Made by a program: the position numbers and the translations under genes. This document shows, one piece after another, positions 5,709 to 27,472 of a stretch of DNA of 64,000 nt. Source of the stretch: Lysinibacillus mangiferihumi. GTDB lineage: Bacteria; Bacillota; Bacilli; Bacillales_A; Planococcaceae. The stretch's first letter is position 1, and each line of letters starts with the position of its first letter. The notes under the pieces are model-generated. The model saw only the letters and a program-made list of their open reading frames with translations, ran no database searches and was not told the DNA's origin. The stretch lies in contig NZ_PYWM01000016.1 of NCBI RefSeq assembly GCF_003049665.1, positions 49,104-113,103 on the forward strand, in the 5' to 3' direction.

Positions 5709-5734
5709 AAACTAAATTTCTACTAGTTAACAAA

Positions 5735-5772
5735 CTATGGGCAAACTCAAATTCCATTGAATTTGCCTATAG
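5735..5772 (-). terminator. Terminator downstream of topB
   Basis: CTATGGGCAAACTCAA pairs imperfectly with TTGAATTTGCCTATAG. It begins 20 bp after the topB stop codon. The following minus-strand bases TTTGTTAACT give only a weak U-tract. Confidence 0.55.
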
Positions 5773-5791
5773 TCCTAAATCTTCCGATGAT

Positions 5792-7987
5792 TTAATTATC
5801 AGAGTTAAAGCCTTTTAATAGATCTGCAAACGGATTATTCAAAGGTTCTTCTTCTTTTGCTTGTTGTTTCAAATACTTTTGCACACTTCGCTTATCCACT
5901 TTTCCGCCACCTTCTTTTTTGCGACGAGCTTCAAAGGCAGATAATTTTTCACGATGTCCACATTTGCATACGAAGATTTGACCATCGCCTTCACCACGTA
6001 ACTCTAGTTTTTTCTTACATTGAGGACAACGAGCGTTCGTTATGCGAGCTACGTTTTTCTTGTATCCACATTCACGATCTTGGCATACAAGCATCTTACC
6101 TTTCTTACCGTTCACTTCAAGCATTGGTTTGTTGCAATCAGGGCATGATTTCGTTGAAATATTATCATGCTTATACTTCTTATCGCTTGATTTGATTTCT
6201 GCAACTATTTTTTTCGTGTGTTGCTTCATTTCATTGATAAATACTTCTTTCTTCAATTTCCCTTTTGCAATCAACTCCAACTTTTGTTCCCATTCAGCAG
6301 TCGTTGCAGGTGAGCGTAATTCTTCAGGCACTAAATCTAATAGCTGGCGACCTTTTGAGGTAATATAAATTTCTTTACCGCCTCGTTGCTCAATCATAAA
6401 GGAATTAAAAAGCTTTTCAATAATATCGGCACGCGTTGCTACAGTACCTAATCCCCCCGTTGATTTTAAAGTATCGGCTAACTGTTTATCATTACTCTCT
6501 AAATACTTTGTCGGATTTTCCATCGCAGATAGTAATGTTGCTTCATTAAAACGTGCTGGAGGCTTTGTTTGACCCGATGTTTGTGCAATTAAATGAACTT
6601 CTAATGTTGTGCCATTTTCGATTCGAGGGAAAACTTGCTCTTTTAAGTCGTCATTCGATTCCTCATCATCAAAGCGGTTTTCATATACTTCCTTCCAACC
6701 AGCTACAGTGATTGTTTTTCCTTTTGCAACAAAATTTTCATCAGTAATTTTCGCGCGTAACGTTAATTGTTCAAATTCATGTGCTGGGAAAAATACCGCT
6801 AAGAAACGTTTTACAACTAAATCATAAATCTTACGTTCTTTATCATTAAAGTTTGCGAAATTTACGTATTCTTCAGTTGGAATGATCGCATGGTGATCAG
6901 AAACTTTAGCATCGTCTACAAACGCTTTAGTTGCTTTTATAGGTTTAGATAAAACTTTGTTAGCAAACGGGCGGTATTCACCAATTCCGCATGCTTTTAG
7001 ACGTTCTGGTAACGTTGCTACGATATCGCTTGAAATATATCGTGAATCAGTACGAGGATACGTTAATACTTTATGTTGCTCATATAGCTTCTGCATAATA
7101 TTTAAAGTTTCTTTCGCAGAGTAACCAAAAATTTTATTCGCATCGCGTTGTAATTCTGTTAAGTCATACAGCCCAGGTGCAAACGATTTTTTAGGCTTAC
7201 GCTCAACTTCAATTACCTTTGCGTTGTTGTTACCTAGTTTTTTAATGATGGTATCGATTTTACCTTTTTCAAAGCTACGGCTATTGCCTTTTGCATCTTG
7301 CCAAGTAAGTTTTAAATTATCTTTTGTTTTTGCTTCAATACCGTAATATGTTTGAGGTTTAAAATTTTTAATTTCTTCTTCGCGAGCTGCAACCATGGCC
7401 ACAACAGGTGTTTGTACACGCCCGCAGTTTAATTGTGCATTAAAACGTGTTGTTAAAGCACGTGTTGCATTCAATCCGATATACCAGTCAGCTTCACTAC
7501 GAGCTACAGCAGCATGATATAGATTTTCATAATTTTTTCCTGGTTTAAGATTTTCAAAGCCCTCTTTAATTGCTTTGTCGGTTACAGAAGAAATCCATAG
7601 ACGTTTGATTGGCTTTTTAGTGTTTGCTTTTTCAATAATCCAGCGTGCTACTAATTCGCCCTCTCTCCCAGCGTCCGTAGCTACAATTATTTCTTTTACA
7701 TCATTTCGAGTTAGTTGCGATTTCACCGCATTATATTGTTTACCTGTTTGCTTCATTACAACCAATTTCATGCGTTCCGGAAGCATTGGTAAATCTTCTA
7801 AATTCCATGTTTTATACTTCACGTCATATGCTTCTGGGTCCGCTAATGTTACAAGATGTCCCAGTGCCCACGTCACAATATATTTGTCGCCTTCTAAAAA
7901 ACCATTCCCTTTTTTTGTGCATTTTAGTACATTTGCGATGTCACGCGCAACGGATGGTTTTTCGGCAATTACTAAACTTTTTGCCAT
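5792..7987 (-). CDS. topB: DNA topoisomerase III
   Basis: 731 residues, full length for the Bacillus TopB family. Type IA topoisomerase: cuts one strand through a 5'-phosphotyrosine and decatenates DNA. Toprim domain at the N-terminus (MAKSLVIAEKPSVARDI, acidic motif VATDAGREGE at 102-111), the catalytic tyrosine in LTYPRTDSRYIS (Tyr310), and a C-terminal zinc-ribbon region (CPDCNKPM about 625; CPQCKKKLELRGEGDG about 670, followed by FVCKCG). The AAAGGAG site is 9 nt from the ATG. It is monocistronic and flanked on both sides by regulator relics. No sign of a conjugative element around it, so this is probably the chromosomal housekeeping copy. Confidence 0.97.
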   Translation of the reverse strand: MAKSLVIAEKPSVARDIANVLKCTKKGNGFLEGDKYIVTWALGHLVTLADPEAYDVKYKTWNLEDLPMLPERMKLVVMKQTGKQYNAVKSQLTRNDVKEIIVATDAGREGELVARWIIEKANTKKPIKRLWISSVTDKAIKEGFENLKPGKNYENLYHAAVARSEADWYIGLNATRALTTRFNAQLNCGRVQTPVVAMVAAREEEIKNFKPQTYYGIEAKTKDNLKLTWQDAKGNSRSFEKGKIDTIIKKLGNNNAKVIEVERKPKKSFAPGLYDLTELQRDANKIFGYSAKETLNIMQKLYEQHKVLTYPRTDSRYISSDIVATLPERLKACGIGEYRPFANKVLSKPIKATKAFVDDAKVSDHHAIIPTEEYVNFANFNDKERKIYDLVVKRFLAVFFPAHEFEQLTLRAKITDENFVAKGKTITVAGWKEVYENRFDDEESNDDLKEQVFPRIENGTTLEVHLIAQTSGQTKPPARFNEATLLSAMENPTKYLESNDKQLADTLKSTGGLGTVATRADIIEKLFNSFMIEQRGGKEIYITSKGRQLLDLVPEELRSPATTAEWEQKLELIAKGKLKKEVFINEMKQHTKKIVAEIKSSDKKYKHDNISTKSCPDCNKPMLEVNGKKGKMLVCQDRECGYKKNVARITNARCPQCKKKLELRGEGDGQIFVCKCGHREKLSAFEARRKKEGGGKVDKRSVQKYLKQQAKEEEPLNNPFADLLKGFNSDN

Positions 7988-8559
7988 ATTTTCATACTCC
8001 TTTACTTACATCTGTCATGTTAAATATACCACAAGTAATGCGTTATATTTTTTTAGCTACTCTTACTTAGAAGTCCTACTAAGGTGATGAGTGGAATTTT
8101 CAAAAGTATTAAAGAATGATATTAAGTATGCATAGGAAGGCTGCTAGTTTATCAGGAGCAGCTAGCTTGGCAGAGTGATTTGGATAGAACTTATATTGGG
8201 ATGTTAGAGAGCGCGCTAGGCATCCTAGTTTAACGACAATTTTCATATGAAAATGTAGTATCACATTGCAATCAACTGGTTCAATATTCAATGTGCTGTA
8301 GAAGAAATTTTGTATGAAATTGATTAGTTGCGTCTTGAATTTTCTTTTTTTCATCTAGTAAAATGTATATAAGCTAGTAAAATTTTTAACTGTTGTATCA
8401 TTCATCGTTCCATCCCTCATATTTGCCTATATTGTATTCCATTAAGGTTTTATAATTAAACATTTACATAAAAAGTATTTTTAAAACTGCATACTCCTAT
8501 TCCCTTAACATATATTGAATTGCCATAATATTCTCAAAATTATAAAGGAGGAGAAGAAA
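7988..8559. other. Gene-free stretch upstream of topB with a regulator relic
   Basis: About 570 bp. The middle holds the XRE relic at 8153-8245. An 81-codon minus-strand frame (8109-8354) is its shadow and has no convincing homology. The rest is AT-rich with the topB promoter region on the left and the small membrane gene's promoter region on the right. Confidence 0.6.
8153..8245 (+). pseudogene. Second XRE-family regulator relic
   Basis: From 8153 the plus strand reads QEQLAWQSDLDRTYIGMLES; skipping 2 bases at about 8210 the frame resumes as ERARHPSLTTIF. Together these reproduce the XRE family core 'SQEQLALQSGLDRTYISMLERG.R.PSLTTIF' with one frameshift. No start codon, ribosome binding site or C-terminus survives. 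It differs in sequence from the relic at 5199, so two separate regulators decayed on either side of topB. Confidence 0.72.
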
Positions 8560-8694
8560 ATGCAAGCTCAAGACTTTAGACCACGAAATGTGATTATTAT
8601 TACGATTATTGTTGTTTTATCACTTATTATTGGTCACGCGATTTATGTAGATTTTATTGATGTTTCTTCATATGTAAATGAAATCGTTGAATAA
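8560..8694 (+). CDS. Small single-pass membrane peptide, 44 aa
   Basis: ATG at 8560 with an excellent AAAGGAGGAG site 6-12 nt upstream. The product has a short polar N-terminus (MQAQDFRPRN), one strongly hydrophobic helix (residues 11-30: VIIITIIVVLSLIIGHAIYV) and an acidic tail ending EIVE. I do not recognise a family. The ribosome binding site, codon use and a terminator-like hairpin about 120 bp downstream suggest a real small gene. It stands alone between topB and the tandem array. Confidence 0.7.
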   Translation: MQAQDFRPRNVIIITIIVVLSLIIGHAIYVDFIDVSSYVNEIVE

Positions 8695-8812
8695 GTTCTA
8701 AAGTATTCCATTGGTTTTAGGTAACTTGTGCAAAACTGAATCAAGTGAAGCTTTGTGGCAGTCATTAATATGTAAGTGGAATCATGCCATAAATTTATAT
8801 AGTAATAAAAAG

Positions 8813-20862: not shown

Positions 20863-21309
20863 ATGGATCAAGAAAAACAACAAGCCATTACCTCATTATT
20901 TGAAGTTGTCTCTTCTATCGAGCGTAAATGGGCAAACGAGTGGAATAATCATAATGTACTCGGCTTTTCAAAATCCCATATTTTAATTTTAGACTACTTA
21001 TCGCAGGAGGGACCAAAGCGCCCTTCTGCTATAGCTGAGCGCTTAAAAGTTACAACAGGTGGCGTCACAGTATTAACGACCAAACTGATTAATGCTGGCT
21101 TTATCGAAAAAACACAGCACGCTACCGATCGCAGAGCCTCGCAATTAGTTATTACGACCGAGGGTGAAGATATCCTTGAAGAATCACGTCAACAAGTTAG
21201 CGAAATTATTAACAATATGTTTGGCATGCTGTCAGCAGAAGAGGTGCAAACATTACGTGATATTTTTGCCAAGTGTTTACTAACTGTCGATACTAATCGT
21301 CAAGATTAA
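20863..21309 (+). CDS. MarR family transcriptional regulator
   Basis: 148 residues with a winged helix: FSKSHILILDYLSQEGPKRP, SAIAERLKVTTGGVTVLTTK (recognition helix), then the wing HATDRRASQLVITTEG with the conserved DRR. Dimerisation helices flank it. Follows the Spx paralogue by 23 bp, so it likely shares its transcript. Ligand and targets unknown; no efflux pump or oxidoreductase follows it in the operon. Confidence 0.9.
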   Translation: MDQEKQQAITSLFEVVSSIERKWANEWNNHNVLGFSKSHILILDYLSQEGPKRPSAIAERLKVTTGGVTVLTTKLINAGFIEKTQHATDRRASQLVITTEGEDILEESRQQVSEIINNMFGMLSAEEVQTLRDIFAKCLLTVDTNRQD

Positions 21310-21334
21310 ATTTTCAGCTTTGTGTAGAAACACG

Positions 21335-21380
21335 AATAAGGATGCATCGCAAATTATTGTTTGCAATGCATCCTTATTTT
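21335..21380 (+). terminator. Bidirectional terminator between MarR and ECF sigma genes
   Basis: AATAAGGATGCAT and ATGCATCCTTATT pair perfectly, extended by GCAAA/TTTGC, followed by TTTT on the plus strand and A-rich on the other side. The genes converge here, so one hairpin serves both. Confidence 0.88.
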
Positions 21381-21439
21381 GATTGGCCGAACGAATACTT
21401 CCGTCTAAGTAGTTAAGATAGTGCGACCAATTGTTTTTA

Positions 21440-21988
21440 TTACGCTGGTAGCACAGCCTCGACAATTGACACATCAGCCATAAGCATTTCTTTTAGGCGC
21501 GCTTTCGCACGGAATAAACGAGATTTCACCGTCCCAATAGAAACCTTCATAATAGTAGAAATTTCAGCAAGTGAATATTGGTCTATGTAGAAATACCATA
21601 AAGTTTTTCTATAGATTGCATCTAACTGTCCCATTTTATCCTGTACTAGCTTTGTCACAATTTCTTTTTCAATTTTTTCTTCTGTTGAAATTTCATTATT
21701 GGGAACCAAATCTAAAATCGGTACGTCTAATGTTTCAGGTTGGTTCATCATGTACTTACTGCGTCGTACTTTTTTTCGATAGCGATCTCTAAATGTGTTC
21801 ATTGTAATTGTTGTTAGCCAAGCTTTAATATGTTCTACTTCGGCAACGCTATCTTCGTAGCGTACGACTTTGACCCAAACTTCTTGCATCAGATCTTCTG
21901 CTTCTACATTATTACGAGTAAGTTTCAAACATAAATGGTATATATAACGATTATATTCCTCATATACGCCTTCTAATTTTTCATTCAT
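21440..21988 (-). CDS. ECF-type RNA polymerase sigma factor
   Basis: 182 residues with sigma-70 regions 2 and 4 only. Region 2: YIYHLCLKLTRNNVEAEDLM, QEVWVKVVRYED, WLTTITMNTFRDRYRKKVRR. Region 4: YRKTLWYFYIDQYSLAEIST and VSIGTVKSRLFRAKARLKEM (helix-turn-helix binding the -35). GGAGGAATACACA precedes the ATG. ECF genes are usually followed by an anti-sigma gene; here the next gene downstream is MarR on the opposite strand and a terminator intervenes, so no partner is present. Regulation must be transcriptional or by a distant factor. Confidence 0.9.
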   Translation of the reverse strand: MNEKLEGVYEEYNRYIYHLCLKLTRNNVEAEDLMQEVWVKVVRYEDSVAEVEHIKAWLTTITMNTFRDRYRKKVRRSKYMMNQPETLDVPILDLVPNNEISTEEKIEKEIVTKLVQDKMGQLDAIYRKTLWYFYIDQYSLAEISTIMKVSIGTVKSRLFRAKARLKEMLMADVSIVEAVLPA

Positions 21989-22053
21989 TGTGTATTCCTC
22001 CGCTTCTTGTTCTTGCTTCTATACACATTCTCGCAAAATAATGTATTACACTC

Positions 22054-22081
22054 TATCGTATTGGCTTTCAATTTCATTACA
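22054..22081 (-). promoter_or_regulatory. Possible autoregulatory ECF promoter
   Basis: On the minus strand TGTAAT, 17 bp, CGATAG lies about 65 bp upstream of the ECF sigma gene's start. It resembles SigX/SigW-type sites (TGTAAC-N17-CGTC/CGAC) with mismatches. Autoregulation is common for ECF genes, but the match is weak. Confidence 0.35.
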
Positions 22082-22303
22082 ATCGTGTAAGCTTAAATGC
22101 TTTTACTTGTAATATTCGTAAAAAATGTTTTACTACTATATCTCTTTTATATGAAAAAACCTATGAAAACCCTTCCAAATTCAAATTCACATAGTCGCAT
22201 TTAATTATTGTAGGCTTAATATTACTTTTGCTTATATAAAGATTTGTTTATAACTAATAGCGAAGCTTTACACAGTACCTTTATCACTATCATCAACATA
22301 TAC

Positions 22304-22344
22304 AAAAAGCTCTTAAAAGGTATTACCCGCTTTAAGAGCTTTTT
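22304..22344 (-). terminator. Terminator of the alcohol dehydrogenase gene
   Basis: AAAAAGCTCTTAAA and TTTAAGAGCTTTTT form the stem; the minus-strand side ends in GCTTTTTG. It lies 8 bp past the gene. Confidence 0.88.
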
Positions 22345-22351
22345 AAGCTAT

Positions 22352-23395
22352 TTATTGAAAATCTATAATGATTTTTAATGCATGCTCATCCGCCGCATTA
22401 GCAAATGTTTCGTAAGCTTCCATCATGTCGTCAAATTTATAGCGATGTGTAGCTAACCTTTCTGGCTTAATCTTCCCTGTTTCTAAAGTTTTTATTAGCA
22501 TCGGTGTTGTGCTTGTCGATACTAAACCTGTGGAAATTGTCACGTTGCGAATCCATAAATCTTGTAATTGCAAATCGACAGGTTTACCATGGACACCAAC
22601 ATTAGCTAAACGACCTCCTGGTGATAAAATTCGCTGGCAAATATCGAATGTTGCAGGGTAACCTACAGCTTCAATTGCTACGTCAACTCCACGACCATCT
22701 GTCATTTCAAATATTTTATCGATTGCAGCTTGGGCATCACGTGAATTGATTGTCTCTGTAGCACCAAATTTCTTGGATTCTTGTAAACGATTATCATCGA
22801 GATCAATCATTATAATTTTTGAAGGAGAGTAAAATTGCGAAGTTAATAGTGCAGACATTCCAATTGGACCTGCACCTACGATAGCTACTACATCACCTGG
22901 TGACACTTGACCATTTAATACGCCAATTTCCAAACCCGTTGGTAAAATATCAGAAATCATAACAGCAGCATCATCAGATATCCCTTGTGGAATGTGGTAT
23001 AGAGAGTTATCAGCATGTGGAATATGAACATACTCTGCTTGTGTCCCATTGATTAAATGACCTAAAATCCACCCGCCATCTTCACAATGAGCATATAAAG
23101 ATTTTTTACAATAGTGACATTTACCACATGACGTCACGCATGAAATAATTACTTTATCGCCTACTTTAAAGTTTGATACACCTGCCCCTACCTCTTCAAC
23201 AATTCCAATACCTTCGTGACCTAAAATTGTCCCCTCTTTAACAGCAGGTACATCGCCACCTAAGATATGCAAATCCGTACCACAAATAGTTGTTTTCACA
23301 AGACGCACCACTGCATCGCTATCTTTCACTACACGAGGTTTGTCTACTTCACGTAATTCCTTTTTACCTGGTCCTGCAAATACTAGCGCTTTCAT
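22352..23395 (-). CDS. Zinc-dependent alcohol dehydrogenase (MDR superfamily)
   Basis: 347 residues. GroES-like catalytic domain with catalytic zinc ligands in CGTD (Cys38) and GHEG (His60, Glu61), and four structural-zinc cysteines at 90, 93, 96 and 104 (CGKCHYCKKSLYAHC). Rossmann domain with VGAGPIGMSA (about 173-182) and MIDLDDNRL, whose Asp favours NAD+. Closest in style to secondary-alcohol/sorbitol-type dehydrogenases. RBS GGAGAATTCTAA before ATG. Monocistronic. Substrate not readable. Confidence 0.92.
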   Translation of the reverse strand: MKALVFAGPGKKELREVDKPRVVKDSDAVVRLVKTTICGTDLHILGGDVPAVKEGTILGHEGIGIVEEVGAGVSNFKVGDKVIISCVTSCGKCHYCKKSLYAHCEDGGWILGHLINGTQAEYVHIPHADNSLYHIPQGISDDAAVMISDILPTGLEIGVLNGQVSPGDVVAIVGAGPIGMSALLTSQFYSPSKIIMIDLDDNRLQESKKFGATETINSRDAQAAIDKIFEMTDGRGVDVAIEAVGYPATFDICQRILSPGGRLANVGVHGKPVDLQLQDLWIRNVTISTGLVSTSTTPMLIKTLETGKIKPERLATHRYKFDDMMEAYETFANAADEHALKIIIDFQ

Positions 23396-23515
23396 TTAGA
23401 ATTCTCCTCTCTCAATAGATTTGTAGACTTAATATACTTTAAATATAATTAATTATTCAGAAAACGTCAATATTGTGGACGATTTTAAGTTAATTTTTAT
23501 AATTTTTAGAGACAA

Positions 23516-23548
23516 AAAAGCCTTCTTAAATATCGCCATTTAAGAAAG
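23516..23548 (-). terminator. Terminator of the IS3-like orfAB
   Basis: On the minus strand GCTTTCTTAAAT, loop GGCGAT, ATTTAAGAAGGC followed by TTTTTTG. It lies 21 bp after the orfB stop codon. Insertion sequences rarely carry such a strong dedicated terminator directly after the transposase. Confidence 0.87.
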
Positions 23549-23568
23549 CTCTCGTATTCACATTATTC

Positions 23569-24213
23569 TCATTTATCTATGGAAGCATGTCCTCGACGCA
23601 ATCGATATTGTGCACCCGTTAAAAATGGCACCATCGCTTGTAAACATGCATCATCATATAAATACTCTTTAAAAACAATTGGTGGTAGTAACAGCTCTTT
23701 TTCTTTACAAGCTTCTTTACAATGTTCAATAAACGCTGGTTGTAGGCTAGTATACAAAGCTGATGGCATTGGAAACTGGTCATATGCTTTCTGTATAGCC
23801 ATTACCAATAAGTCTTCACTTAGTACTTGATCGAAGCTGAAACCCGTTATTTTCTTTGTATGGACATCTATAATAGACGCCATATAAGCCCATCCTTGAT
23901 GCCAAGTTGGTACGTAACTTATATTGATTACCCACTTTTCGTTAGCTTTTGTCGTTTCGAAGCCTATATTTACTATTGGTTCCGGAACTTCTTCTACTTG
24001 TGCTTCCCTTGCCATTTTTAATACACGCTGGACCTTCCGCAAACTCCCTTGAAAGCCTCGCATTTTCAATATTTCATATAGCTGTGCACCATTATAAAGT
24101 TGCCCATTTTCGATAAATATTTGTTCAATTTCCTCTAATAACGCTTCCGATGCCGACTTTCTTGATGACTGTTGCTTTTTTTGCAATCCACTGTAGTAAG
24201 TACTTTTGGGCAA
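23569..24213 (-). CDS. IS3-type OrfB (rve-like integrase domain lacking DDE)
   Basis: Independent reading from a TTG at 24213 gives 214 residues; by -1 frameshifting it would be fused to OrfA, with upstream in-frame residues DVIDYIERESKKHAVKVLCE matching the usual OrfB beginning. HTH_21 region: EEIEQIFIENGQLYNGAQLY and LRKVQRVLKMARE. Integrase core: WVINISYVPTWHQGWAYMAS then IIDVHTKKITGFSF, aligning with WTTDITYI..GW.YLA..DL.SR.IVGW. Active-site positions are Asn97 (D1), Ser156 (D2) and Gln192 (E), spaced 58 and 35 residues apart exactly as in DD(35)E enzymes. Strand transfer chemistry should be impossible. Confidence 0.85.
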   Translation of the reverse strand: MPKSTYYSGLQKKQQSSRKSASEALLEEIEQIFIENGQLYNGAQLYEILKMRGFQGSLRKVQRVLKMAREAQVEEVPEPIVNIGFETTKANEKWVINISYVPTWHQGWAYMASIIDVHTKKITGFSFDQVLSEDLLVMAIQKAYDQFPMPSALYTSLQPAFIEHCKEACKEKELLLPPIVFKEYLYDDACLQAMVPFLTGAQYRLRRGHASIDK

Positions 24214-24290
24214 GTCTAATAGCTCACAGAGTACTTTAACAGCATGTTTTTTACTTTCCCGTTCTATATAATCAATTACATCTGTATCAT

Positions 24291-24551
24291 CTAATTGGCT
24301 GCGAATATGGTAATAGCCTTTTTTAAAATATCGACCTCTTGTTTTAATCGTTCGTTTTCTTTTTGAACGGTTAATACTTCTGCCTTCGTCATGTCGGTGA
24401 CACCATCAACTGGTGTATATAACTTTATCCATTTATAAATGGTTACTTCAGATATACCATATTCGCTTGATAATTTACTGACAGCGGTGCCGAGGCGATA
24501 TTGTTTTACAAGCTCTAATTTAAAGTCAGATGAATATCGTTTATTCCCCAT
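24291..24551 (-). CDS. IS3-type OrfA (HTH and leucine zipper)
   Basis: 86 residues: helix-turn-helix of the HTH_Tnp_1 type (YSSDFKLELVKQYRLGTAVS, then LSSEYGISEVTIYKWIKLY) followed by a leucine-zipper helix (VQKENERLKQEVDILKKAIT). AAAGGGGGAG stands 4 nt before the ATG. The frame ends at TAG 24293-24291, after the slippery site. OrfA alone normally binds the element ends and represses; here it could bind chromosomal sites. Confidence 0.88.
   Translation of the reverse strand: MGNKRYSSDFKLELVKQYRLGTAVSKLSSEYGISEVTIYKWIKLYTPVDGVTDMTKAEVLTVQKENERLKQEVDILKKAITIFAAN
24318..24324 (-). other. Programmed -1 frameshift heptamer A AAA AAG
   Basis: The minus strand reads ATT TTA AAA AAG GCT in the orfA frame; AAAAAAG is the canonical slippage site of IS3-family elements. 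A -1 shift continues as GYYHIRSQLDDTDVIDYIER into orfB without a stop. Conservation of the heptamer, despite loss of the active site, is notable. Confidence 0.75.
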
Positions 24552-24702
24552 ACAACTCCCCCTTTTTTCTCCTATTTATAATAGTTGCTTGTCATAACAA
24601 TGTCTAGGTTGCTGAAGGATAGTTCCGTATGAATCATCGCTATTGCAGCAATAAATAATGTTTTGGAAAGCATTGCTACGACAGGATTCCCCAACCACAT
24701 TA

Positions 24703-24711
24703 TGCTATACT
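24703..24711 (+). promoter_or_regulatory. Extended -10 promoter of the dipeptidase gene
   Basis: TGCTATACT is an extended -10 element (TGnTATACT) 38 bp before the ATG of the dipeptidase gene. No good -35 at 17 bp, as is common for extended -10 promoters. Confidence 0.5.
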
Positions 24712-24748
24712 ATTTCTATTATCGAAATATTGAAAGAGGGATGAATGT

Positions 24749-26134
24749 ATGACGCAATTACAGACATTAAATGCTTATTTTGCTGAACATCGTGAGGCGC
24801 ACTTAAATGAATTAAATGAATTTTTACGTATTCCAAGTATTAGTTCATTATCTGAGCATAAAGGCGATATTCAGCATGCCGCAGAATGGCTAGCTGATGC
24901 CTTCAAGAAACTCAACTTAGAAAACATTTCTATCACTCAAACTGCTGGTCACCCTGTTGTTTATGCTGACTGGTTACATGCAGAAGGCAAACCAACTATT
25001 CTATTTTACGGTCACTACGATGTACAGCCAGTTGATCCATTACATCTATGGGATAGCGAACCGTTCAACCCTACGATCCGTGATAACAAATTATATGCAC
25101 GTGGCGCAAGTGATGATAAAGGTCAAGTGTTTATGCACTTAAAAATGATTGAAGCACTATTTGCAACGACTGGTACTTTGCCAGTGAACGTAAAATTCAT
25201 CTATGAAGGAGAAGAAGAAATCGGTAGCCCTCATCTGCCTGCCTTTGTTGAAGAACATAAAGAAAAATTAGCAGCTGATTTAATTTTGATTTCTGATACA
25301 GGTCTTTATGGCCCTGGTAAACCAGCAGTATGCTATGGCTTACGCGGTCTTACAGGCGTACAAATTGATGTGCGTGGCGCAAAAGGCGATTTACATTCAG
25401 GCCTATACGGTGGCGGTGTACAAAATGCCATTCATGCACTAGCAGAAATTTTAGCATCCTTCCGCGACGAACACGGTACAATCCAAGTAGAAGGTTTCTA
25501 CGATAAAGCATTACCATTAACGGAAGAAGAACGTGAAGCTTATCGAGCACTAGGCTTTGACGAAGACTCCGTAAAAGAGGAAGTCGGCGTATCTGAATTG
25601 TTCGGTGAAGCAGGCTATTCTTATTTAGAGCGTACTTGGGCCCGTCCAACTTTAGAAGTAAATGGTGTATTCGGCGGATTCTCTGGCGAAGGCATTAAAA
25701 CTGTACTTCCTGCTGAAGCTGGTGCAAAAATTACTTGCCGACTAGTACCAAATCAGGAGCCAGAAGAAATCGTTGCTTTATTAAAAGCACATATCGACAA
25801 ACATAAGCCTGCTGGTGTAGAAGTAACGATTTCAGAATTCGATAAAGGCCGTCCATTCTTAACACCATTTGATCATCCATTTATTCAAGCAGCCGGTCGT
25901 TCCTACGAAAAAGTTTATAATGTACCTACCGCTTACACACGTGGTGGTGGTTCGATTCCAATCGTTGCTGCCTTTGATGAAATTTTAGCTTTACCAGTTG
26001 TTTTAATGGGCTTTGGTCTATCGAGCGAAAACTTCCATGCACCAAACGAGCATTTCCATTTAGAAAACTTCGATAAAGGTTTACGTGTATTAGGAGACTA
26101 TTTATATGAGGTTGCAGCACTAAGTCAATCGTAA
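24749..26134 (+). CDS. M20 family dipeptidase
   Basis: 461 residues, full length. Dinuclear zinc peptidase: GHYDVQPVDP (His89, Asp91), ARGASDDKGQ (bridging Asp122), YEGEEEIGS (catalytic Glu and metal ligand, about 155-156), ISDTGLYGPG and the final metal histidine in SSENFHAPNEHFH (about 438). The insert of about 180 residues between metal ligands (GAKGDLHSGLYGGGVQNAIH) is the dimerisation domain. Cytosolic, no signal peptide; hydrolyses dipeptides or beta-alanyl/carnosine-like substrates. AGAGGG upstream of ATG. Monocistronic, followed by the second CGCG array and a bidirectional terminator. Confidence 0.93.
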   Translation: MTQLQTLNAYFAEHREAHLNELNEFLRIPSISSLSEHKGDIQHAAEWLADAFKKLNLENISITQTAGHPVVYADWLHAEGKPTILFYGHYDVQPVDPLHLWDSEPFNPTIRDNKLYARGASDDKGQVFMHLKMIEALFATTGTLPVNVKFIYEGEEEIGSPHLPAFVEEHKEKLAADLILISDTGLYGPGKPAVCYGLRGLTGVQIDVRGAKGDLHSGLYGGGVQNAIHALAEILASFRDEHGTIQVEGFYDKALPLTEEEREAYRALGFDEDSVKEEVGVSELFGEAGYSYLERTWARPTLEVNGVFGGFSGEGIKTVLPAEAGAKITCRLVPNQEPEEIVALLKAHIDKHKPAGVEVTISEFDKGRPFLTPFDHPFIQAAGRSYEKVYNVPTAYTRGGGSIPIVAAFDEILALPVVLMGFGLSSENFHAPNEHFHLENFDKGLRVLGDYLYEVAALSQS

Positions 26135-26149
26135 ACAACACAACTTATC

Positions 26150-26258
26150 CGCGATGTACTTTGCTTTACCCGCGAAATACTTTGGGTTATCCGCGCTTTA
26201 TTACCATTTACCCGCGGAATACCCGATTTTACCCGCGCTTTACTGCGGTTTACCCGCG
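26150..26258. repeat. Second 21-bp CGCG array (five units)
   Basis: CGCG occurs at 26150, 26171, 26192, 26213, 26234 and 26255: six cores at exactly 21-bp steps. Most are preceded by TTTACC or TTATC, as in the big array at 8899-9444, while the bases between cores vary. It fills the gap between the dipeptidase stop codon and the terminator. Confidence 0.88.
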
Positions 26259-26263
26259 ATAAT

Positions 26264-26297
26264 AAAAATCCCCTCGCCATTTTGGCAGGGGATTTTT
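26264..26297. terminator. Bidirectional terminator, dipeptidase / nitroreductase
   Basis: AAAAATCCCCT and AGGGGATTTTT with inner GCC/GGC form a strong stem with T-tracts on both strands. The flanking genes converge. Confidence 0.92.
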
Positions 26298-26304
26298 CAT
26301 TTGT

Positions 26305-26877
26305 TTATTCACCAAAATTCGTTACAAACTGTGCTGATGTTTTTCGTTCTTTGCCTTTTGGTACTTCATCAAAATAACCTACCTGTAACATCGCTATTAC
26401 ACGTTCACCTGGCTGCACTTTTAATGCTTCACGGAATTTAGGATTATCTAAGAAGCCTGGTGTTTTCCAGCAAGAGCCAATACCTTTATCCCAAGCTAAC
26501 AGCTGGATATTTTGAATAAAAATACTCGCTGCTGCGTAATCTTCTAAACGCTCTTTTTGACGTGCATCCTCTGGCACAATGACAAATGCATAGCCACCAG
26601 GCAATGTAAATTTTGCCATTTGCTTCGCTAAATCTTCACTCGAAAGCTCCTGCCATTTTGGAACAGCTAGCTCTCGTAATAGCTGATGTAGTGCAACTAA
26701 ATCATCATCGCAAGCAATAACTAAACGCCACGGTTCGCGATTACCATGATTCGGTGCCCAGACAGCATCGTCAACAATGCCCAGTAAATCTTCACGTTTC
26801 ACTAATTGCCCATTAAACTTCTTAATTGAACGGCGATTTATAATTGCATCTCTTACCGATAAAAATTGTTCGCTCAT
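26305..26877 (-). CDS. Nitroreductase family protein
   Basis: 190 residues. FMN-binding nitroreductase fold: INRRSIKKFNG (phosphate-binding arginines), AVWAPNHGNREPWRLVIA, and the C-terminal AAASIFIQNIQLLAWDKGIG followed by SCWKTPGF, a pattern of the YdjA-like subgroup. Probably an NAD(P)H-dependent reductase of nitro or quinone compounds. GAAGGAGATAG precedes the ATG. Single gene. Confidence 0.9.
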   Translation of the reverse strand: MSEQFLSVRDAIINRRSIKKFNGQLVKREDLLGIVDDAVWAPNHGNREPWRLVIACDDDLVALHQLLRELAVPKWQELSSEDLAKQMAKFTLPGGYAFVIVPEDARQKERLEDYAAASIFIQNIQLLAWDKGIGSCWKTPGFLDNPKFREALKVQPGERVIAMLQVGYFDEVPKGKERKTSAQFVTNFGE

Positions 26878-26977
26878 TTTTTTCTATCTCCTTCTAATAA
26901 TAGTAGTATATATCATTATTCTTCATTTCTATCTCCAACATTATCATAAAATGATGAGCTTTAAAACTGCTAACACT

Positions 26978-27472
26978 CTAAGCAAAACTATCATCTATAT
27001 GATAAAAATAATAGGTCATATTTGGGGTATACGCCGTAGAATCCTGATAAAAATAAGCCCTATTAATACTATCTGATGTATGTGCATTGACATAGGGAAT
27101 TCCATTTTGGATACTCGTCACAATGACCGAATGATCAATTCTGCCATCTCCTTGAAAATCGTAAAATATAACGTCCCCAATGTCCAATTGTTCTGCCGTT
27201 TGCACGCGTGTAGCCTTTAAACCCGTTTTTGAGCCCTCTAAATACCATCTTAGAGAATGTGCCACGGACCAGCTAAAGCTCCAGTTGCCTTGTTGAATCC
27301 ACCAGCCCCTTTCCCTATTTGGTGCTCCTCGCATCGGTGCTCCTCCAGCAAGTAAGCACTGTGAAATATAATTCGTACAATCGACATCAAAGTTCGGAAA
27401 TGCCGGATTACGACTATTCCACCATAAATTCGCATATTGCACAGCTGCCTGTCTGTTATACATTTTGGCCAC
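26978..27472 (-). CDS. Amidase-domain (Amidase_6 / CHAP-like) protein
   Basis: 164 residues from a GTG at 27472, chosen because AAGGAGGGGGAGC ends directly before it; the in-frame ATG farther upstream lacks a site. [20 protein letters not shown] and [16 protein letters not shown] (probable catalytic Cys), [20 protein letters not shown] (His) and VNAHTSD are hallmarks of the amidase_6 domain common in Bacillales. There is no signal peptide in this copy, so it acts inside the cell or in the spore or is exported non-classically. Substrate unknown. Confidence 0.82.

Follow-up and report, generated by a model that had tools for sequence, protein, structure and literature searches.

How can a transposase gene stay free of stops after all three catalytic residues have been replaced, and what might its product do for the host? 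An IS3-type gene pair, orfAB, of Lysinibacillus mangiferihumi raises this question. It lies upstream of an alcohol dehydrogenase gene, adh, in a window of 64,000 nucleotides (assembly GCF_003049665.1, contig NZ_PYWM01000016.1, positions 49,104 to 113,103), to whose positions all coordinates below refer. A preliminary description of the window, made from the sequence alone, proposed that the pair was domesticated, for example as a frameshift-regulated DNA-binding protein, rather than decaying.

A transposase without its catalytic triad

The locus is read from the minus strand. The first gene, orfA (24291..24551), encodes an 86-aa helix-turn-helix (HTH) and zipper-like protein, which matches HTH_Tnp_1 (PF01527, E 6.9e-14). 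From the slip site, orfB (23569..24318) continues in the −1 frame and encodes an integrase-like protein with an RNase H-like core. This fold, foreseen in the preliminary description, is present in the structure model. OrfB matches rve (PF00665, E 3.9e-06) under the gathering score, and the NCBIfam transpos_IS3 cut-off of 160 was missed by OrfB (89.9 bits) and by OrfA, scanned separately (37.4). A sequence search of solved structures returned eight matches (repeat or helical proteins and uL24), with no stretch passing alone; fold comparison was used in its place.

Both frames are open, and the slip heptamer A_AAA_AAG (AAAAAAG, 24318..24324, minus strand), with AGAGG upstream, and the purine-rich ribosome-binding site of orfA (24556..24568, minus strand) can be read directly from the sequence, as described earlier. 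The heptamer is kept in five of the six orthologues, the slip site of G015 being weakened, and A_AAG, a motif class named in the cited account (PMC4066793), in all six. No Rfam family reached its gathering score within 21000-27000.

An alignment with seven intact IS3 OrfBs, which took in 19 of the 25 family rows, bore out the claimed substitutions. The D-D-E columns hold N137, S196 and Q232 of P0002 (97, 156 and 192 in the earlier numbering; codons 23923..23925, 23746..23748 and 23638..23640, minus strand), spaced by 58 and 35 intervening residues. In the same alignment, the C-terminal side of OrfB is shorter than in the intact relatives.

A protein search retrieved 24 relatives at 66-95% identity, followed by six ordinary IS3 transposases at 23-30%. 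The named members of the family come from Lysinibacillus, Rummeliibacillus and Viridibacillus. In the 25-row family alignment, the first position is N throughout; the second is S in 19 rows, N in five and unreadable in one; the third is Q in 18, E in three, A in two, K in one and unreadable in one. As the first two aspartates are lost in all readable rows and the third position varies, the first two losses are common to the family, and the change from E to Q looks younger. The N/S/Q triad expected in relatives thus holds for the two aspartates, lost family-wide, and for the glutamine in only 18 of 25 rows. A tree built from 19 family rows and seven intact relatives separates the two groups by a branch of length 1.49 with a support of 1.000. 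OrfAB is predicted to be catalytically dead.

Six of the 32 genomes of the genus carry an orthologue, at 73-100% identity. Among 261 genomes of the family, the 32 included, G303 is the sole addition at E 1e-45, and its element is intact. In the plasmid collection (at least 5000 records) all of the matches listed, and in the phage collection (48 records) all matches, were below 60% identity. In a collection of genome contigs, a single-protein scan found no relative, and an alignment scan found two distant loci at 22-26%. The preliminary description had named multiple copies, close intact relatives in the same genome and stop-ridden orthologues as signs against domestication. Instead, orfAB occurs as one copy in its own genome, the other IS3 matches there are 25-28% identical, none of them close, and the six orthologues have no premature stop downstream of the slip site. 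In its triad, tips, copy number and transpos_IS3 score, orfAB falls short of a functional IS3 element.

Selection on orfAB

The dN/dS ratios lie well below 1, as the preliminary description had anticipated for a domesticated gene. Between diverged pairs of the six carrier genomes, NG86 values, for which some dS exceed 1, were 0.05-0.18 for orfA (the part before the slip site), 0.09-0.37 for orfB and 0.03-0.06 for adh, placing orfB under weaker constraint than adh. Among the six orthologues, OrfA is 87-100% and OrfB 72-96% identical. Comparing three of the six orthologues with seven of the nine live copies (a G005 copy and the truncated G303c were left out), OrfA is 57-67% and OrfB only 31-38% identical, while in intact pairs an OrfA identity of 73-77% goes with 67-69% for OrfB. 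We read these identities as one fast phase of OrfB change, with constraint since. orfAB is under purifying selection, and its domestication is well supported: the shared dead site, the selection and the adh linkage described below all favour domestication over decay.

Linkage to adh

The zinc-dependent alcohol dehydrogenase gene (347 aa, 22352..23395, minus strand) lies downstream of orfAB in every carrier, and the order orfA-orfB-adh is the same in all six genomes. At E 1e-120, adh occurs in the same six of the 32 genus genomes as orfB. Were the genomes independent, which they are not, such a perfect coincidence would have a chance of about 1e-6. The module is dispensable, as the other 26 genomes have neither gene. 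In seven genomes of other genera, adh is found at 66-82% identity without orfAB.

The module occurs in three arrangements, that is, in two neighbourhoods, one of them occupied in both orientations. In G000, G019 and G021, it adjoins a sigma-factor-like gene, as in the window. In G015, it is inverted next to the same gene (L045, 3863-6096), and in G029 and G023, it lies in a different place, flanked by a TetR/SDR pair on one side and other genes on the other. Of the two neighbours by which the preliminary description had proposed to recognise the locus, the alcohol dehydrogenase is conserved and the M20 dipeptidase is not.

The DNA match of G000 with G029, G023 and G015 stops at the adh stop codon (60 bp beyond it for G015), and on the other side at 24607-24609, just past the −35 of orfA. 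In G029 and G023, the module has a dS from G000 of 0.69-0.86, roughly double the 0.29-0.49 of the flanks, and for this reason the module was likely transferred as a unit in these genomes. G015 has no clear rise (module 0.52-1.15, flanks 0.61-0.76).

Some features of the surroundings may be recorded here. The slot between the sigma-factor-like and M20 dipeptidase genes (21989-24748) is variable: it holds the module in G000, G019 and G021, whereas G029 and G023 have other DNA there, about 3.2 kb long. G019 has about 2.3 kb of extra DNA separating orfA from the M20 gene (L042, ~6300-8700). In G021, the roughly 700 bp between orfB and adh (L043, ~5717-6426) contain another terminator, another right-end remnant and a small ORF. 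Compared with G000, the dS of G021 is 0.58 for adh and 0.04-0.10 for orfA and the flanking genes; given this difference, adh and its promoter were probably exchanged in G021. After the M20 gene of the window (~26130-26300), small ORFs on the two strands overlap and encode repetitive peptides (SRVN/SRVK, LPAEY/LPALY), a text that suggests short DNA repeats.

A remnant of the right end at the predicted adh promoter

Repeat finding gave five inverted pairs in 23350-24780, one of which is the terminator and none of which could be placed as element ends. Therefore, the ends were found through live relatives, whose copies from four genomes yielded element ends. Two live copies in G005 have 3-bp target duplications; the ends of the orfAB locus are too decayed to compare. 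Read inward, the live right end is TGGATCTA(C/A)GTCAA-N6-GGAC-N8-GTTAA or near. The stretch between orfB and adh retains GTCAATATTGTGGACGATTTTAAGTTAA at 23466-23493 (plus strand), the inner core GTCAA-N6-GGAC-N8-GTTAA of the right end (IRR); the outer TGGATCT is gone and the tip replaced. The earlier statement that no terminal inverted repeats are present has to be revised, as the right end has kept its inner part and lost only the tip.

When the right-end stretches of the six orthologues were each compared with four live ends, at most five of 300 shuffles reached the observed score in 19 of the 24 comparisons. The pattern GTCAAN6GGACN8RTTAA occurs once in its own 5.3-Mb genome, at adh. Across the 32 genomes, it occurs 16 times, and the reversed pattern twice. 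These 16 occurrences are five adh promoters, eight IS copies with orfA nearby, one other IS end (in G015, a related element with an intact tip) and two sites that lie inside unrelated ORFs or overlap them. The adh sites of G015, whose core reads AGAC in place of GGAC, and of the first copy in G021 are one base off the pattern and were missed for this reason. As the pattern was drawn after aligning the orthologues and the live ends, the independent parts of this result are the uniqueness in its own genome and the reversed control. With one site per lineage, identity is 0.93 in the specified core columns against 0.51 in the spacers (permutation p ~1e-4). No core was seen by eye before adh in the seven genomes without orfAB. 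In IS2, the outer 11 bp of each end serve cleavage and the inner part binds protein, according to the cited account (PMC3299598). The lost tip and the kept inner core at adh follow the same divide.

The predicted adh promoter, TTGACG-17-TATATT (23442..23470, minus strand), is found in all six genomes. Its −35 lies inside the element remnant, because TTGAC is the complement of the right-end GTCAA. Of the two promoter copies in G021, the far one reads TTGATG and the adh-proximal one TTGACG. In our reading, linking the right-end box of the live G005 element to its left end across a 3-bp spacer would give TTGACT-17-TAGAAT. The junction promoter described for IS2 resembles this predicted layout of the G005 circle.

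A terminator-like hairpin follows orfB (23516..23553, minus strand), and hairpins stand here in all six genomes (−20 to −32 kcal/mol over 95 bases). The good terminator of the preliminary description is in this sense present and shared by the orthologues, while the scans of the region were no richer in such sites than shuffles (promoters 6 vs 6.4, terminators 1 vs 0.8). Given these hairpins, adh likely depends on its own predicted promoter. On the same grounds, we discounted transcription of adh by read-through from orfAB.

The orfA side

The promoter scan placed a predicted orfA promoter, TAGACA-17-TATTAT, at 24578..24606 (minus strand). TAGACA is present in all six genomes, at the start of a conserved block, and the second hexamer is TATTAT in four and TATGAT in two. 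The layout resembles TGGACA-17-TATTAT of the G005 left end. Judging by this register alone, the orfA promoter might contain a left-end remnant, although weakly so, as none of the 24 comparisons between six orthologues and four live ends reached the five-of-300-shuffle level.

The leader has also changed. In five live relatives, for which copies L092, L094, L098, L099 and L102 were measured, the end box pairs with the orfA start region in a hairpin of −9.9 to −16.1 kcal/mol, a possible shield against read-through transcription. In the six orthologues it is lost (−1.6 to −3.5 kcal/mol). The ribosome-binding site in the window is strong, which together with the loss of the hairpin fits expression for the host. 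OrfA retains SEVTIYKWIK, unchanged from the live relatives, so the same DNA recognition is expected.

A proposed reuse of the transposase as a regulator, and the alternatives

We consider it likely that the dead IS150-type transposase was domesticated and represses its own gene and adh through the old element ends. An ancestral IS150-like element would have inserted upstream of adh, and its outward −35, part of the junction promoter in IS3-type circles, would have become the −35 of adh. OrfA and OrfAB, the −1 frameshift product, would still recognise GTCAA-N6-GGAC-N8-GTTAA and compete with RNA polymerase at the adh −35. They may also control their own gene at the orfA promoter, of which we are less sure than of the adh side. 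The dead RNase H-like part of OrfAB may multimerise or bridge both sites, about 1.1 kb apart, and the releasing signal could perhaps be an adh substrate. For OrfAB itself, we infer a DNA-binding protein regulated by frameshifting.

OrfAB might regulate adh as an activator instead, recruiting RNA polymerase from just upstream of the −35, where the GGAC and GTTAA boxes directly lie. We regard this as a possibility of lesser weight. Against it stand the near-consensus sequence of the predicted promoter, its 17-bp spacing and the position of GTCAA, which overlaps the −35. Because of this overlap, we estimate that binding at adh would somewhat more probably repress than activate.

More tentatively, and a little less probably than activation, OrfAB could act as a dead transpososome, pairing the old ends across 1.1 kb in a loop that silences the orfA and adh promoters, with the frameshift ratio setting the balance between loop former and competitor. 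If so, the adh −35 would be inherited from a circle-junction promoter.

It is unlikely that OrfAB is a domesticated transposition repressor, which binds the ends of incoming related IS elements while adh merely borrows an old −35. The kept recognition helix of OrfA and the end core shared by live relatives in the genus would suit such a role, and in the cited account ISSau2 OrfA and OrfB inhibit ISSau2 transposition (PMC5771124). Another OrfA at E<=1e-22 is found in none of the six module genomes and in four of the 26 others, numbers too small to weigh. However, G015 still has the intact-tip end of a related element, and such a role leaves the adh linkage in three arrangements and the conserved core columns unexplained.

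We find it less likely again that OrfAB has a host role unrelated to adh control, for example in structural or nucleoid DNA binding, with the linkage reflecting co-transfer as a cassette. The three arrangements, and a module about twice as diverged as its flanks between G000 and G029 or G023, do point to travel as a unit. They do not account for a core that is conserved before adh against drifting spacers and unique in its own genome.

Finally, the genus has many IS fragments and broken copies, several with stops, but a young, still clean, decaying transposase is highly improbable and already contradicted by six orthologues with dS up to ~1, both frames open and dN/dS far below 1, and by a dead site common to 24 homologues.

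Comparison with known systems

The closest comparison is with the live IS150-type relatives (G005, G197, G303, G030, G001). They share with orfAB the HTH and zipper of OrfA, the integrase-like OrfB, the right-end core, a near-identical slip-site context and a comparable arrangement of the promoter within the left end. Unlike them, orfAB has no D-D-E, a shorter C-terminal side of OrfB, no outer tip and no leader hairpin; it has a strong ribosome-binding site, is single-copy and always stands beside adh. For the protein as for one binding end, live relatives from the same genus are available for comparison, and the pattern is one of lost chemistry and a lost tip, with the binding core and the outward −35 kept. 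Inverted-repeat searches can miss domesticated elements that retain just the inner binding part. If the repression model is true, orfAB would behave like a transcription factor derived from a transposase, its former ends serving as operators. It would offer a stepwise test bed for the path from IS to regulator and for the possible reuse of programmed frameshifting to control host genes.

Among characterised IS elements, ISSau2, of the IS150 subgroup, has an OrfAB that binds both ends and shares the A6G slip site with orfAB, but ISSau2 OrfAB cleaves the ends and transposes (PMC5771124). IS2 has bipartite ends as well. Its OrfA is a repressor near its own promoter, and a promoter forms across the circle junction; unlike orfAB, it is mobile, and no host gene is controlled in that account (PMC3299598). 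The same account describes IS911 OrfA without a repressor role, which counts against our repressor reading.

In vertebrates, transposases turned regulators are known, such as the ZBED genes. Among the papers listed in a search of mainly open-access literature, we found no report of this family or of a bacterial IS3 transposase turned regulator. TldR proteins are descended from nuclease-dead TnpB. They are RNA-guided transcription factors (PMC13418256) and, like the role proposed for orfAB, reuse an IS protein as a regulator, from another protein family. The orfAB product is of the IS3/rve type, with recognition predicted to be by its HTH, not of the TnpB type with a guide RNA. Ner/SfsB is likewise a DNA-binding protein of a mobile element taken over for the control of host metabolism. 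It is an Xre-type phage repressor (PMC8987985), not a transposase that reuses its own ends, as we propose for orfAB.
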